A stretch of DNA of 64,000 bases from Halopiger goleimassiliensis (lineage in GTDB: Archaea > Halobacteriota > Halobacteria > Halobacteriales > Natrialbaceae), in assembly GCF_000455345.1 (NCBI RefSeq), contig NZ_HG315690.1:496001-560000 (forward strand), read 5' to 3'. Every line of letters starts with the position of its first letter. Position 1 is the first letter of the stretch. The notes below the pieces were generated by a model. That model was not told the origin of the DNA. It made no database searches and was given only the letters and a program-made list of their open reading frames with translations. Below are positions 10,804 to 15,063 of this stretch, piece by piece. The position numbers and the translations under genes are program-made.

Positions 10804-13800
10804 GTGACCGACGAACGTGCGTCGACGCCGAACGATGGTGAGTCCGCCGCGACCGACGGTGAGCCCGACCCTGCGACCGACGGAGCCGAGGGGACTGCCA
10901 AGAGCGACGAGGAGACGGTCGACGATGCCGATTCACCCGAGGAGGCGTTCTCGATCGCCGACTTCCACGAGGCCAGCCAGCGCGAGGGTCGTCCCGTACT
11001 CACGGCCGCCGCGGTCGCTCGAGCGCTCGAGATTCCCCACGAAGAGGCAAGCGACCGCCTCGAGGCGCTGGCCGAACGCGGCGACCTAAAGCGGCTGTCG
11101 GTGTCGACGGACCCCGTGGTCTGGTATCCAAGCGAACTCGAGGACCTGACCGACCGCGAGCGGGTCGTCGTCTTTCCGAAACGCCGCGAGATCGTCGTCG
11201 ACCGGCCCGACCAGTTCACCCGCGCCCAACTCGCCCAGTTCGCCCACCTCGAGGACGCCAACGGCGAGCAGGGGTATCGGTACGTCGTCCGCCCGGAGGA
11301 CGTCTGGCAGGCACCCCACGACACGTTCGAGGCCCTCGAGCGGACGATGCGCCAGGCGCTCGGCCAGCGCTCGGAGCGACTCGAGGAGTGGGTCCGCAGC
11401 CAGTGGGAGCGGGCCCGCCAGTTCCGCCTCTACACCCACGAGGAGGGCTACACCGTCCTCGAGGCACAGAGCGCGGAGGTGATGGGCAACGTCGCCCGGC
11501 AGAAACTCGACGAAGAACACGTCCACGCGCCCATCTCCGAGACCGAGGACTGGGTTCGCGAGGGCTCCGAGGCCGCGATCAAGCGGATCCTCTACGAGGC
11601 TGGCTACCCCGTCCAGGACCACCGGGATCTCGACTCCGGAGAGGCGCTCGACATCGACCTCGAGGTGTCGCTGCGGGACTACCAGCAAACGTGGGTCGAT
11701 CGGTTCGCCGAGGCCGGCGAGGGGGTCTTCGTCGGCCCGCCGGGTAGCGGCAAGACGGTCGCCGCGATGGGTGCGATGGCCGAGGTCGGCGGCGAGACGC
11801 TGGTCCTCGTGCCGAGTCGCGACCTCGCCCGCCAGTGGGCCGATACGATCCTCGAGTACACCTCGCTCGAACCGCAGCAGGTGGGCCAGTACCACGGCGG
11901 ACAGAAGAACGTCCGTCCGGTGACGATCGCGACCTACCAGATCGCGGGGATGGATCGACACCGATCGCTCTTCGACGACCGAGAGTGGGGACTCGTCGTC
12001 TTCGACGAGTGCCAGCACGTTCCCAGCGACGTCTACCGGCGGAGCACGCACCTGCAGTCCCGACACCGCCTCGGTCTCTCCGTCGATGGTGACACGGTCG
12101 TTCCGATCAAACGCAACGGCAACGTCTCGATGGAGCGGATAGCCGACTTCGCTACGGAACATCTCGGGGAGGAAACCGGCTGGTCACGGGTGAACGACGC
12201 AAAAACGCTTGCCGTCACCGACGAGGGGGACGTCAACTGGACGGACATAACGGGCGTGATGCGGCATCGGAACACAAAACCGATGTACGAAATTCGGAGT
12301 TCGAACGGGCGGAAAGTATCCGTTACGGAAGATCATTCGATAATCGTCTTCGATGCTGAGGAAATGGAGCTCACGAGCAAGCTTCCAACGGAGATCGACG
12401 TTACCGACTATCTTCTTCAACCACACGACCCCGACCTGGGTCTTCCGTCCCGATCCACGGTCGATATATTGTCACTACTAGATGAGGGATTCGTCTTACT
12501 GAGCGAGGACACGCCCGATTCCGAATTCGAACCGCTGTACGAGAGGGATATCGGCGATAACAAGCGAAGATATAACTGGAAGACTCGAGGAAACCTCCCA
12601 CTATCAGTCGCTCGAGAAATCGATATCGACCGAGAATATATAAAGGGTGTGTACACGGGAAAGCGAACACAATATATTCCTCCTTCGGTGCCAATCGAGG
12701 ATTTCGCGCGTCTGATCGGGTTGTTCGTCGCCGATGGGTGTCTCGGCCATCGTCGAGTCGAATTTTACGCGCAAGATACCGCGGAAACGTCGGAAGTAAG
12801 CGAGTTTAAGTCAATCATCCGTTCATTACATCCAGAGGGGAATATCACGACTAGGTCGAACGGATCGGGATGCACGACTGTTCGAATAAGTGGACCTCTG
12901 GTCGATATACTCGAAACGGTTGGGCTATCGAACGGTGCACGCGAGAAAACGATACCACCGATTATTCTGTCTAACCCACAGTCGTACGAACCGTTCCTAG
13001 AAGGAGTTATACTCGGAGACGGGTCCCGACAACGCCGAGATCGAAATAGAGCGAACGTTACTATTTCGACATCGAGCGAACGGTTGACTCACGGGTTGAA
13101 TATCATACTTTCATCGCTTGGATACGTCGGTGGAAACTATCGACGAGCGTGTGATGTCGAAGTACGAGAGCAAACCCACGATGTCACGACAAACAACCTC
13201 GTTCGGTTCAACCCCAAGAATCGTGAGAAAGATCCACGGAATTCACTAGTACCGTTTACGGAGCAACTCCGAGCCTGCTACGATGCTATCGGTCGGGTTC
13301 CAGTAACGAAGAGATATGACGGGATCCAGGAAACACCACTACAGTCGGGGCTCGAACATCGAACGCGACTGAACGACCGAGAGTTAGTAGCCCTTCTTGA
13401 TCGGACAGATACCGATCAATGGCGATGGCTCGCCGAAACGGATATTGCAATGTTAGAAGTGGACAGTATCGAGCGTGTCGAAGACGAGGAGTTCGTATAC
13501 GATATCTCGACCGCTGAATCGAATTTCCTTGGAAACAGTCTTTTCTGCCATAATTCAGCCAGCCCGATCCGCGAGGACGACCGCCAGCAGGAGATCTTCA
13601 CCCTCGTCGGGCCGCCGATCGGCACCGACTGGCAGGCGCTGTTCGACGCCGGCTTCGTCGCCGAACCGGAACTCGAGATCCGCTACGTGCCGTGGGGCGA
13701 CGACGAGCAGCGCAACGCCTACGTCTCCGCCGAGGGCCGCGAGAAGTACCGCATCGCCGCCGAGAACCGCGGGAAGATCGACGAGATCCGGTACCTGCTG

Positions 13801-14229
13801 TCGGCCCACCCCGACTCGAAGGCGCTGGTCTTCGTCGACTACTTAGAGCAGGGACGAGACCTCGCCGACGCGCTGGACGTCCCCTTCGTCAGCGGCGAGA
13901 CGCGCCACTACGAGCGCCGCCGACTGTTCGACGAGTTCCGTCGCGACGAGCGGGACCTACTCGTCATCTCGCGCGTGGGCGACGAAGGGATCGACCTCCC
14001 GACCGCCGATCTCGCCATCGTCGCCTCCGGGCTCGGCGGCTCGAGGCGGCAGGGCACCCAGCGCGCGGGCCGGACGATGCGACCGGCCGGCGGCGCGCTC
14101 GTCTACGTCCTCGCCACCCGGGGCACCCGCGAGGAGGACTTCGCGCGCAAACAGCTCCAGCATCTCGGCCGGAAGGGGATGACCGTCCGCGAGAAGACCG
14201 TCGAACGGGAGGACGAGCCCGAGGACTAA
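10804..14229 (+). CDS. XPB/Rad25-like superfamily 2 DNA helicase interrupted by an intein
   Basis: A 1141-residue precursor; removal of a 492-residue intein leaves a 649-residue helicase. After an acidic low-complexity start and an N-terminal damage-recognition-like region (to about 285), the DEAD/H core has Walker A GPPGSGKT (about 310-317), motif II DECQH (401-405), and, after the intein, motif III SAS and the C-terminal RecA domain with GDEGIDLPTADLAI and QRAGRTMRP. The gap between motif II and motif III is exactly where the intein sits. Homologs in eukaryotes and archaea unwind DNA in repair and at promoters; the archaeal role is less certain. Start is a GTG at 10804 after the promoterless gap with the chemoreceptor gene. 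It overlaps the convergent small gene by four bases. Confidence 0.92.
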   Translation: MTDERASTPNDGESAATDGEPDPATDGAEGTAKSDEETVDDADSPEEAFSIADFHEASQREGRPVLTAAAVARALEIPHEEASDRLEALAERGDLKRLSVSTDPVVWYPSELEDLTDRERVVVFPKRREIVVDRPDQFTRAQLAQFAHLEDANGEQGYRYVVRPEDVWQAPHDTFEALERTMRQALGQRSERLEEWVRSQWERARQFRLYTHEEGYTVLEAQSAEVMGNVARQKLDEEHVHAPISETEDWVREGSEAAIKRILYEAGYPVQDHRDLDSGEALDIDLEVSLRDYQQTWVDRFAEAGEGVFVGPPGSGKTVAAMGAMAEVGGETLVLVPSRDLARQWADTILEYTSLEPQQVGQYHGGQKNVRPVTIATYQIAGMDRHRSLFDDREWGLVVFDECQHVPSDVYRRSTHLQSRHRLGLSVDGDTVVPIKRNGNVSMERIADFATEHLGEETGWSRVNDAKTLAVTDEGDVNWTDITGVMRHRNTKPMYEIRSSNGRKVSVTEDHSIIVFDAEEMELTSKLPTEIDVTDYLLQPHDPDLGLPSRSTVDILSLLDEGFVLLSEDTPDSEFEPLYERDIGDNKRRYNWKTRGNLPLSVAREIDIDREYIKGVYTGKRTQYIPPSVPIEDFARLIGLFVADGCLGHRRVEFYAQDTAETSEVSEFKSIIRSLHPEGNITTRSNGSGCTTVRISGPLVDILETVGLSNGAREKTIPPIILSNPQSYEPFLEGVILGDGSRQRRDRNRANVTISTSSERLTHGLNIILSSLGYVGGNYRRACDVEVREQTHDVTTNNLVRFNPKNREKDPRNSLVPFTEQLRACYDAIGRVPVTKRYDGIQETPLQSGLEHRTRLNDRELVALLDRTDTDQWRWLAETDIAMLEVDSIERVEDEEFVYDISTAESNFLGNSLFCHNSASPIREDDRQQEIFTLVGPPIGTDWQALFDAGFVAEPELEIRYVPWGDDEQRNAYVSAEGREKYRIAAENRGKIDEIRYLLSAHPDSKALVFVDYLEQGRDLADALDVPFVSGETRHYERRRLFDEFRRDERDLLVISRVGDEGIDLPTADLAIVASGLGGSRRQGTQRAGRTMRPAGGALVYVLATRGTREEDFARKQLQHLGRKGMTVREKTVEREDEPED
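12079..13554 (+). mobile_element. Intein with LAGLIDADG homing endonuclease domain
   Basis: Residues 426-917 of the helicase precursor. Ser426 is the likely intein residue 1 (SVDGDTVVPIK), block B has TEDH (508-511), and the two endonuclease motifs are LIGLFVADG (637-645) and FLEGVILGDG (731-740). It closes with FVYDISTAESNFLGN and the terminal His-Asn before Ser+1, so it is a class 1 intein with Ser at both splice junctions. Precise removal gives RHRLGL-SASPIREDD, a continuous helicase motif III. The codons are visibly richer in A and T than the flanking helicase sequence, which points to separate ancestry. Confidence 0.93.
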
Positions 14230-14546
14230 CCGACCTCCGCTACCGGTGGTGCGTCCGGTTCGACCGTTTCGACCCGTTCGACCGCTCGCACGCCGACGGC
14301 GCGCTCGAGCGTTCGTCTCGACGTCGGTTCGTCGGCGGCGTCGGCGGCGATTTCGAGGCGAACCTCGAGATCGACGGTCGTCTCGTTTAACGCAGGGGAG
14401 ACGCCCCGGACGTCGACGGAAGTGACGGTTTCGACCGCGTCGGCTCGCTCGAGGACCCCGACGGCACCCTCGGCGAGGCTGCCGGAGGCACCGAGCGGGA
14501 CACGAACGGTGCACAGCGCATCGATCTGGTGGATCGTCGCTACCAT
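14226..14546 (-). CDS. Small protein of unknown function (106 residues)
   Basis: MVATIHQIDALCTVRVPLG begins a protein with alternating beta-strand-like and acidic segments; it has no membrane span or metal motif. It could be a small alpha/beta domain, but I do not recognise the family. It converges on the helicase gene with a four-base overlap. The ATG at 14546 is two bases downstream of the 3' end of a tRNA-like fold on the same strand, which is unusual and is described separately. Upstream in-frame extension (to 14636) would run through that fold and is not favoured. Confidence 0.65.
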   Translation of the reverse strand: MVATIHQIDALCTVRVPLGASGSLAEGAVGVLERADAVETVTSVDVRGVSPALNETTVDLEVRLEIAADAADEPTSRRTLERAVGVRAVERVETVEPDAPPVAEVG

Positions 14547-14651
14547 AACGCCCCCGTCGAGAGTCGAACTCGACGCTCGGGGTCGCCGGTGCCCGGCGTG
14601 GGAACCGACGACCCCGCGTGTTGGCCGATACACCACGGGGGAACGCCCCCG
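14547..14651. repeat. 10-base direct repeats flanking the tRNA-like element
   Basis: aacgcccccg occurs at 14547-14556 and again at 14642-14651, at the two ends of the tRNA-like sequence. The first copy contains the 3' acceptor strand; the second lies next to the 5' end. Confidence 0.5.
14549..14642 (-). other. tRNA-like cloverleaf with enlarged anticodon arm
   Basis: Read on the minus strand from 14642 to 14549. The acceptor arm TCCCCCG pairs with CGGGGGC at six of seven positions (first pair mismatched). Bases 8-9 are TG; the D arm is GTGT with loop ATCGGCCA and ACAC (U8, A14, G18G19, A21, Y11 and R24 all as expected); base 26 is G. The anticodon stem CGGGG/CCCCG encloses 29 bases instead of 7 and can extend by further pairs. 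The variable loop is AGCG, and the T arm is TCGAG-TTCGACT-CTCGA, fully consensus. There is no U33 next to the stem, so it is not a normal tRNA: a decayed tRNA, an intron-containing tRNA of odd type, or a tRNA-like mRNA leader. Confidence 0.45.
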
Positions 14652-15063
14652 ATACGCGTGTCGGCCGGGCGGTCGTCGAACGTCGTACGAACCGGTCCCC
14701 GACTGTTCGGGTTCCAGGTACCTCGAGAACGAGCGACGAATCCGTCCGGCCGGCGGCGTTATCGGGCGCGGACGGATTCGATAGCGACCGAATTCGACCC
14801 GGCGATCGGGTCGACGCTCCGTCCACGACCCTCGAGTCCAATAGCGAACTCGAGGTCCGGCTTGCCGAACCCACGCTCGATCGGCCCATAGCCGAGCGAG
14901 CAGTGAGTGGACATCGTGGTGCGGAGCATCGGTCTGAACGTATCCAGACCATGTTCGGGCGCTGTCATAACTGTTTCCCCAGTGTGTTCACACGCCACAC
15001 GAATTGGACGGATCGAACCGGGGCCAATATTCAAGGTCACGCTCCGGAAACTGTACGGGTACC
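14643..15063. other. Intergenic region before the herA-like gene
   Basis: Several frames remain open by chance in this GC-rich stretch but none has a coding look. The last 45 bases contain the TATA-like promoter listed at 15024. I see nothing else beyond the tRNA-like element to its left. Confidence 0.35.
15024..15036 (+). promoter_or_regulatory. TATA-like promoter of the leader ORF/herA unit
   Basis: ccaatattcaagg lies 28-40 bases before the ATG of the 12-codon leader ORF at 15064, so the transcript should start near that ATG rather than at the herA start. Confidence 0.4.

Follow-up and report, generated by a model that had tools for sequence, protein, structure and literature searches.

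The window, a 64,000-nt stretch of the 3.9-Mb haloarchaeal genome of Halopiger goleimassiliensis (G000), carries on its minus strand a gene for a 106-aa haloarchaeal protein (14226-14546), preceded on the same strand by a tRNA-like element (14549-14642). The gene is convergent with that of an XPB/Rad25-type helicase (plus strand, 10804-14229), which has an inserted intein and a LAGLIDADG homing-endonuclease domain. Relatives traced by way of the neighbouring protein are Natrialbaceae, among them Halopiger, Natrinema, Natronococcus and Natrialba, and, more distant, Halorubrum. In several Natrialbaceae plasmids the 106-aa gene has ParA genes on one side and a DEAD/DEAH helicase on the other, and in the records of two plasmid relatives the RefSeq coding sequence starts at the ATG directly behind the element.

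The 106-aa product matched no Pfam or NCBIfam model above cut-off. AlphaFold2, supplied with 55 relatives, returned a confident b-a-b-b-a-b model (pLDDT 90), predicted to be a ferredoxin-like fold of no known family. The best Foldseek match of the model had an E of 0.006; VIA Z values were 6-7 for S6, EF-1 beta, DUF211, Cse3-type and ACT domains, and 8.8 for one long adhesion-receptor chain. The structure comparison gave neither a specific RNA-binding match nor a clear structural relative. A KEOPS/Pcc1-type identity, considered as a reason for tRNA mimicry, was discarded, as sequence matches were missing in Pfam, NCBIfam and PDB.

Anatomy of the tRNA-like element

The sequence from 14642 to 14549 (minus strand) is a tRNA-like cloverleaf spanning tRNA positions 1-73, which ends two bases before the ATG of the 106-aa gene. 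An earlier note, made from the letters only, had described it so, and its coordinates and general anatomy were confirmed. An independent ARAGORN call places a tRNA at 14548-14643 (minus strand), labelled Asp(GTC), and all stem pairs are standard except 1-72, a U-C mismatch. The Rfam tRNA model stays below threshold and finds nothing within the window, which is not surprising where the anticodon loop is missing.

All parts are on the minus strand. The 5' acceptor strand UCCCCCG (14636-14642) faces the 3' strand CGGGGGC (14550-14556), residues 2-7 pairing with 66-71, and the discriminator is the G at 14549. The D arm (14618-14633) features a GUGU/ACAC stem enclosing AUCGGCCA, with G18G19, and is conserved in the family alignment. 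The T arm (14557-14573) is made by a UCGAG/CUCGA stem and a UUCGACU loop. The anticodon arm is replaced by a hairpin (14578-14616) without anticodon loop, CGGGGUCGUCGG/CCGGCGACCCCG, with a 12-bp stem and a 15-nt loop, and not, as first described, by a 5-bp CGGGG/CCCCG stem with 29 enclosed bases. The UU residues at 14547-14548, corresponding to a spacer of 1-4 nt in orthologs, would be the entire 5' UTR left upon cutting by tRNase Z.

The minimum-energy fold of the naked RNA (-57.3 kcal/mol) is stronger than that of 200 out of 200 dinucleotide shuffles (z -3.8). It is not the cloverleaf, which reaches -53.3 kcal/mol when its pairs are enforced and is not optimal; hence folding energy alone is no proof of the cloverleaf. 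The T arm is the only perfect one in the window, and among the 686 ATGs on both strands only that of the 106-aa gene has a T arm ending 0-5 nt upstream. The T-loop motif is found at the right distance from an ATG at 41 sites of the genome, 2 of which, before the 106-aa gene and a DUF5658 gene, have the full 5-bp T stem. Covariance model R1, built from 20 rows including the window sequence, assigns 83.4 bits to the element, the top genome match by a margin of 40 bits. Further full cloverleaf copies were sought and rejected: the R1 genome matches ranking after the element are a real tRNA-Pro and a real tRNA-Gln, then noise, and 20 further family matches examined are real tRNA-Gln or tRNA-Glu. 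The tRNA-like element is real, and the decisive proof is its conservation in relatives.

Conservation and variation among orthologs

Of the 125 genomes of the family, 62 encode a relative of the 106-aa protein, as do 177 of the 392 genomes of the order. The leaders of 90 orthologs, from 8 families, were examined for T arms in which four or more of the five T-stem pairs form and the T loop deviates at no more than one position. T arms were found in 85 leaders, which span 7 families; the 5 leaders lacking it are all from family f17 (Halorussus type), and represent its 5 sampled members. The gap between discriminator and ATG measures 1 nt at 49 loci, 2 nt at 24, 3 nt at 7 and 4 nt at 4, with one exception at 27 nt. 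The fixed position just 5' of the start codon, already pointed out in the earlier note, is thus kept at 84 of the 85 T-arm loci, where a cut after the discriminator would leave 1-4 nt before the ATG.

Residues U54, U55, C56, G57 and A58 and the G53-C61 pair are invariant in 68 distinct sequences; the T-loop motif and the G53-C61 pair also served to locate the T arm, and the independent part of the evidence is made by T-stem covariation and spacing. The T stem is paired at 97.9%, versus 77.9% when its halves are shuffled (maximum 85.0% in 2000 shuffles), and several pair types occur at 49-65 and 52-62. In the 20 cloverleaf members of the window's family, 95.7% of the stated structure is paired, versus 89.7% in shuffles; 8 pairs are changed on both sides, versus 4.1 (none of 500 shuffles reaches 8), and the covariation score is 0.209, versus 0.095. 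Such shuffle controls do not equal a probability, since related sequences can beat shuffles without structure. Stronger evidence of covariation is provided by controls in which the partner strand was slid, where pairing in the 20 members falls to 34-55%, and by the T-stem data from outside the window's family.

Compensatory changes affect the T stem; in the window's family they extend to the acceptor and anticodon stems. Pair 1-72 occurs in relatives as G-C, U-A or C-G, pairs 2-71 and 3-70 as C-G or U-A; 1-72 is unpaired in 9 of the 20 family members. The stem at the anticodon position is preserved by double changes, its length and loop being freely variable. The conservation of paired bases and the excess of covariation over shuffled sequence, on which the earlier note had made its proposal depend, are both present. 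Outside the family, 16 of 35 loci have an acceptor partner at p<=0.05, against 1.75 expected; individually the partner is non-significant in about half of the loci, and GC-rich sequence weakens single cases. Of the structure, the T arm persists throughout the 85 loci, and acceptor pairing is evident in roughly half of the loci.

Other parts vary. ARAGORN labels the orthologous elements Asp, Glu, Arg, Ala, Gly, Asn, or not at all, depending on the locus, because the anticodon arm can be any hairpin, from tight loops to arms >40 nt. The initial reading of the TTCCCAC heptamer as a Gly(CCC) anticodon is not supported, as relatives do not conserve the loop and their anticodon arms span this same range. 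The D arm is altered or lost in several lineages outside the window's family, and one relative (L108) has a large insertion within the D loop. As anticodons differ or are absent among loci, the element is not a decoding tRNA. It lacks the 7-nt anticodon loop with U33 and the decoding anticodon of functional tRNAs, and remains below the Rfam tRNA gathering threshold, which is reached at the orthologous loci of G001 and G006 only. Nor does it supply a tRNA absent elsewhere, as the 42 tRNA hits in the genome include Asp (twice), Glu(UUC), Glu(CUC) and Gly(CCC). A tRNA interrupted by an intron was also considered and appears unlikely: no spliced 7-nt anticodon loop is evident, and relatives carry short hairpins instead. 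Drift has thus affected the decoding half and spared the half read by tRNase Z and RNase P.

The best matches of the element are Gln/Asp/Glu-type tRNAs. Two genomes of a single genus (locus L199, G001:C3; locus L198, G006:C2) have a tRNA-Glu(UUC)-like gene in place of the element. This gene scores 59 bits with the Rfam tRNA model, has an equally short gap to the ATG, and its loop CUUUCGA is the loop of tRNA-Glu(UUC); G006 also has a separate tRNA-Glu(UUC). A tRNA fossil retained as punctuation would be the simplest history.

Additional tRNA genes and degenerate tRNA-like sequences reside near L198 and L199. Orthologs of family f17 without T arm include L144, L146, L155 and L166; in L146 and L166, stem-loops ending in GGGAG or GGAGG are found near the ATG, possibly denoting a switch to a Shine-Dalgarno leader.

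A minihelix before DUF5658 genes

Genomes were searched for a pattern made by the T loop, an acceptor GGG and an ATG at the right distance, along with a reversed control. The pattern is present in 118 of 384 genomes, and the control was nearly silent. Besides the 106-aa orthologs, it recurs before the gene of a 116-aa DUF5658 membrane protein (loci L264, L265-L271, L278, L279, L283 and L314-L333). The site in the genome analyzed here (L264, G000:C1:643983-644007) lies outside the window. DUF5658 leaders feature a minihelix, made by a CUCCC...GGGAG acceptor and a CCGG-UUCGACU-CCGG T arm, without D and anticodon arms. Across the 28 loci that were aligned, the ATG follows the end of the acceptor strand at 2-3 nt and the discriminator position at 1-2 nt. 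A TATA-like ATAACA box is located approximately 78-110 nt upstream of the ATG in most loci, which places the transcription start well 5' of the minihelix. DUF5658 loci were selected by the T-arm pattern, and the invariance of their T arms is due to this selection; what counts as evidence is that the pattern recurs at one gene, that the acceptor pairs, and where the promoter lies. The arrangement strengthens the processing reading of the 106-aa leader.

In two loci of family f7 (L272:863-887 and L273; genomes G130 and G167), a second T-arm/acceptor motif with an ATG is found 360 nt downstream of the first, and precedes a short open frame. Sites of the type 'GTTCGACTCGCCGCGGGACGCGATG' were evaluated as extra cases and discarded, having 3 of 5 T-stem pairs and being read as coding sequence.

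A probable t-element and a predicted leaderless mRNA

The cut made by tRNase Z falls on the 3' side of the discriminator and depends on the acceptor and T arms; most haloarchaeal translation is from leaderless mRNAs. The element is likely, with a probability of about 0.7, a t-element at which tRNase Z would cut after the discriminator, producing a leaderless mRNA. It features the acceptor stem and the T arm in a tRNA-like structure, as t-elements do, the other arms being dispensable. Transcription of the 106-aa gene would begin at a promoter 5' of the element. Acceptor stem and T arm would then stack in the primary transcript, forming a minihelix recognised by tRNase Z, and a cut after the discriminator at 14549 would set the mRNA 5' end 2 nt before the AUG, thus making the mRNA leaderless by the haloarchaeal definition (0-5 nt). 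RNase P may cut the other end, releasing a small tRNA-like RNA. As the acceptor stem ends 2 nt before the AUG, the uncut transcript should be poorly translated, and cutting would therefore also serve as an on-step. We infer transcription from upstream, cleavage and the effect on translation from the structure, its conservation and spacing, and the second gene. A more elaborate version, in which translation is switched on by tRNA maturation, the minihelix hiding the start codon until removed by tRNase Z, and the genes read out free tRNA-processing capacity, is tentative and rather unlikely.

The Haloferax volcanii 5S rRNA provides a precedent. Cutting by tRNase Z at the t-element upstream of this rRNA was reportedly described by Hoelzle et al. 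in 2008 and 2012. The earlier note had invoked this case, and PMC4326828 bears it out: as stated there and in PMC3296008, tRNase Z cuts a tRNA-like structure upstream of the 5S rRNA, and t-elements release RNAs in vivo together with RNase P. In the same species, 72% of the transcripts that encode proteins are leaderless (5' UTR of 0-5 nt), and a structured leader is regarded as untypical of haloarchaea (PMC4983044). Like the 5S t-element, which in a haloarchaeal precursor lies immediately 5' of the rRNA and sets its end, the element described here combines acceptor and T arm in a tRNA-like structure, and it would likewise set the 5' end of the mRNA. In contrast to the 5S t-element, the elements described here are located before protein start codons, the predicted cleavage product is a leaderless mRNA, and conservation extends across haloarchaeal families at one gene, and within one family at a second, unrelated gene. 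In the open-access literature searched, such tRNA mimicry was found described for ribosomal RNA only, an earlier mention in the 2012 study of Haloferax tRNA-like elements being possible. A further parallel is the tRNA punctuation of mitochondria, where RNase P and RNase Z excise tRNAs, and thereby set mRNA 5' ends at or near the AUG. Mitochondrial tRNAs are mostly functional and spread across a polycistron; in the haloarchaeal case the tRNA is degenerate, does not decode, and serves a single gene.

Some observations were counted against the t-element: the difference between the minimum-energy fold and the cloverleaf, the lack of T arms in f17, the unpaired 1-72 residues in 9 of 20 members of the window's family, and the non-significance of many acceptor partners outside it. 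The conserved upstream sequence is likewise not explained by simple processing. A 12-bp inverted repeat, CGAATCCGTCCG/CGGACGGATTCG, flanks an RTAA-like box at 14737-14780 (minus strand); its arms are changed yet matching at the same place in several relatives, and the repeat may be an operator or a leader/RNA hairpin. Just upstream of the element, a GGGGG run at 14646-14650 (minus strand) complements the 5' acceptor strand; GGGG is likewise present in many, but not all, family members (it is absent in L007, L013, L030 and L109). The run could form a hairpin competing for the acceptor strand, and by sequestering it could add regulation in the window's family. A scan for sigma-70-type promoters and terminators, ill-suited to archaea, revealed nothing.

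The tRNA mimic could alternatively be an operator for a tRNA-binding protein that represses translation, be it a synthetase, a tRNA-modifying enzyme or the product of the 106-aa gene; this is improbable. E. coli threonyl-tRNA synthetase binds its own mRNA leader and represses translation, and the thrS operator similarly combines tRNA mimicry with a position in the leader adjoining the ribosome binding site. A protein bound next to the start codon would block initiation, and the b-a-b-b-a-b fold is common to many RNA-binding proteins. Paralogs of the 106-aa protein are also associated with tRNAs. Arrays of 8-16 tRNA genes are found at L239-L243, L246 and L248 (genomes G004, G048, G080, G118, G116 and G120); at L239-L243 a 97-aa paralog, without matches in a phage collection, lies directly behind tRNA-Gly, with a gap of 58-59 nt, and a TROVE (Ro60-like) gene is found beside the array, as confirmed in L239. 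The thrS operator, however, mimics the anticodon arm for the synthetase. In the present element it is the acceptor and T arms that persist, while the anticodon arm varies freely and offers a synthetase no conserved anticodon as identity element. The lack of a specific RNA-binding match in the structure comparison also speaks against an operator. The unrelated DUF5658 membrane protein gene carries the same kind of signal. What the two cases have in common is therefore not the product, which argues against product-specific autoregulation.

The same Ro60-like genes next to the paralogs would fit a different function, in which the element acts chiefly as a small non-coding RNA in its own right, either a tRNA-like decoy or similar to Y RNAs, and the downstream gene is merely co-transcribed. 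YrlA, a bacterial Y RNA with a tRNA-like module, is a non-decoding tRNA mimic as well; RNase P and tRNase Z would free such an RNA, and the loci of G001 and G006 host a complete tRNA-Glu-like gene. Unlike YrlA, the element ends at a start codon, and its distance from the ATG is conserved, whereas sequence, length and number of arms outside of the T arm and acceptor are not. As DUF5658 minihelices moreover dispense with D and anticodon arms, a role mainly as RNA seems quite improbable.

Conservation could also act at the DNA level, the T-arm sequence being a promoter or operator element, or an integrase attachment site. Integrases often use tRNA 3' ends as attachment sites, tRNA arrays flank the gene in G001 and G006, and the T loop is invariant and at a fixed distance from the ATG. 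Yet stems change by compensation across variable insertions, and an attachment site would not need an adjacent start codon. At about 15-24 nt from the ATG, the T loop lies too near to it for a TATA box and is also too rich in GC, and most DUF5658 loci have their TATA-like box much further upstream. Conservation of this kind is highly improbable. The resemblance to Gln/Glu/Asp-type tRNAs, the loss of D or anticodon arms in many relatives and the non-optimal cloverleaf fold in the window would suit a functionless, decaying tRNA pseudogene or a chance fold, but neither would keep the T loop invariant, the T stem covarying and the spacing at 1-4 nt over seven families; provided that the alignments are correct, covariation and spacing already refute both.

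Reading the element as a t-element has several implications. Leaderless 5' ends at these genes appear to be made by RNA processing, and not by transcription start, and two unrelated small protein genes may provide mRNA substrates for tRNase Z. Predictions of tRNAs with differing anticodons at this locus would thereby be explained. The element would be a tRNA fossil: drift changed the part concerned with decoding, whereas the substrate of tRNase Z was kept over whole families, and the evolutionary route would be simple, as a tRNA gene beside an open reading frame may lose its tRNA function and stay as punctuation. The hypothesis is directly testable in model haloarchaea.
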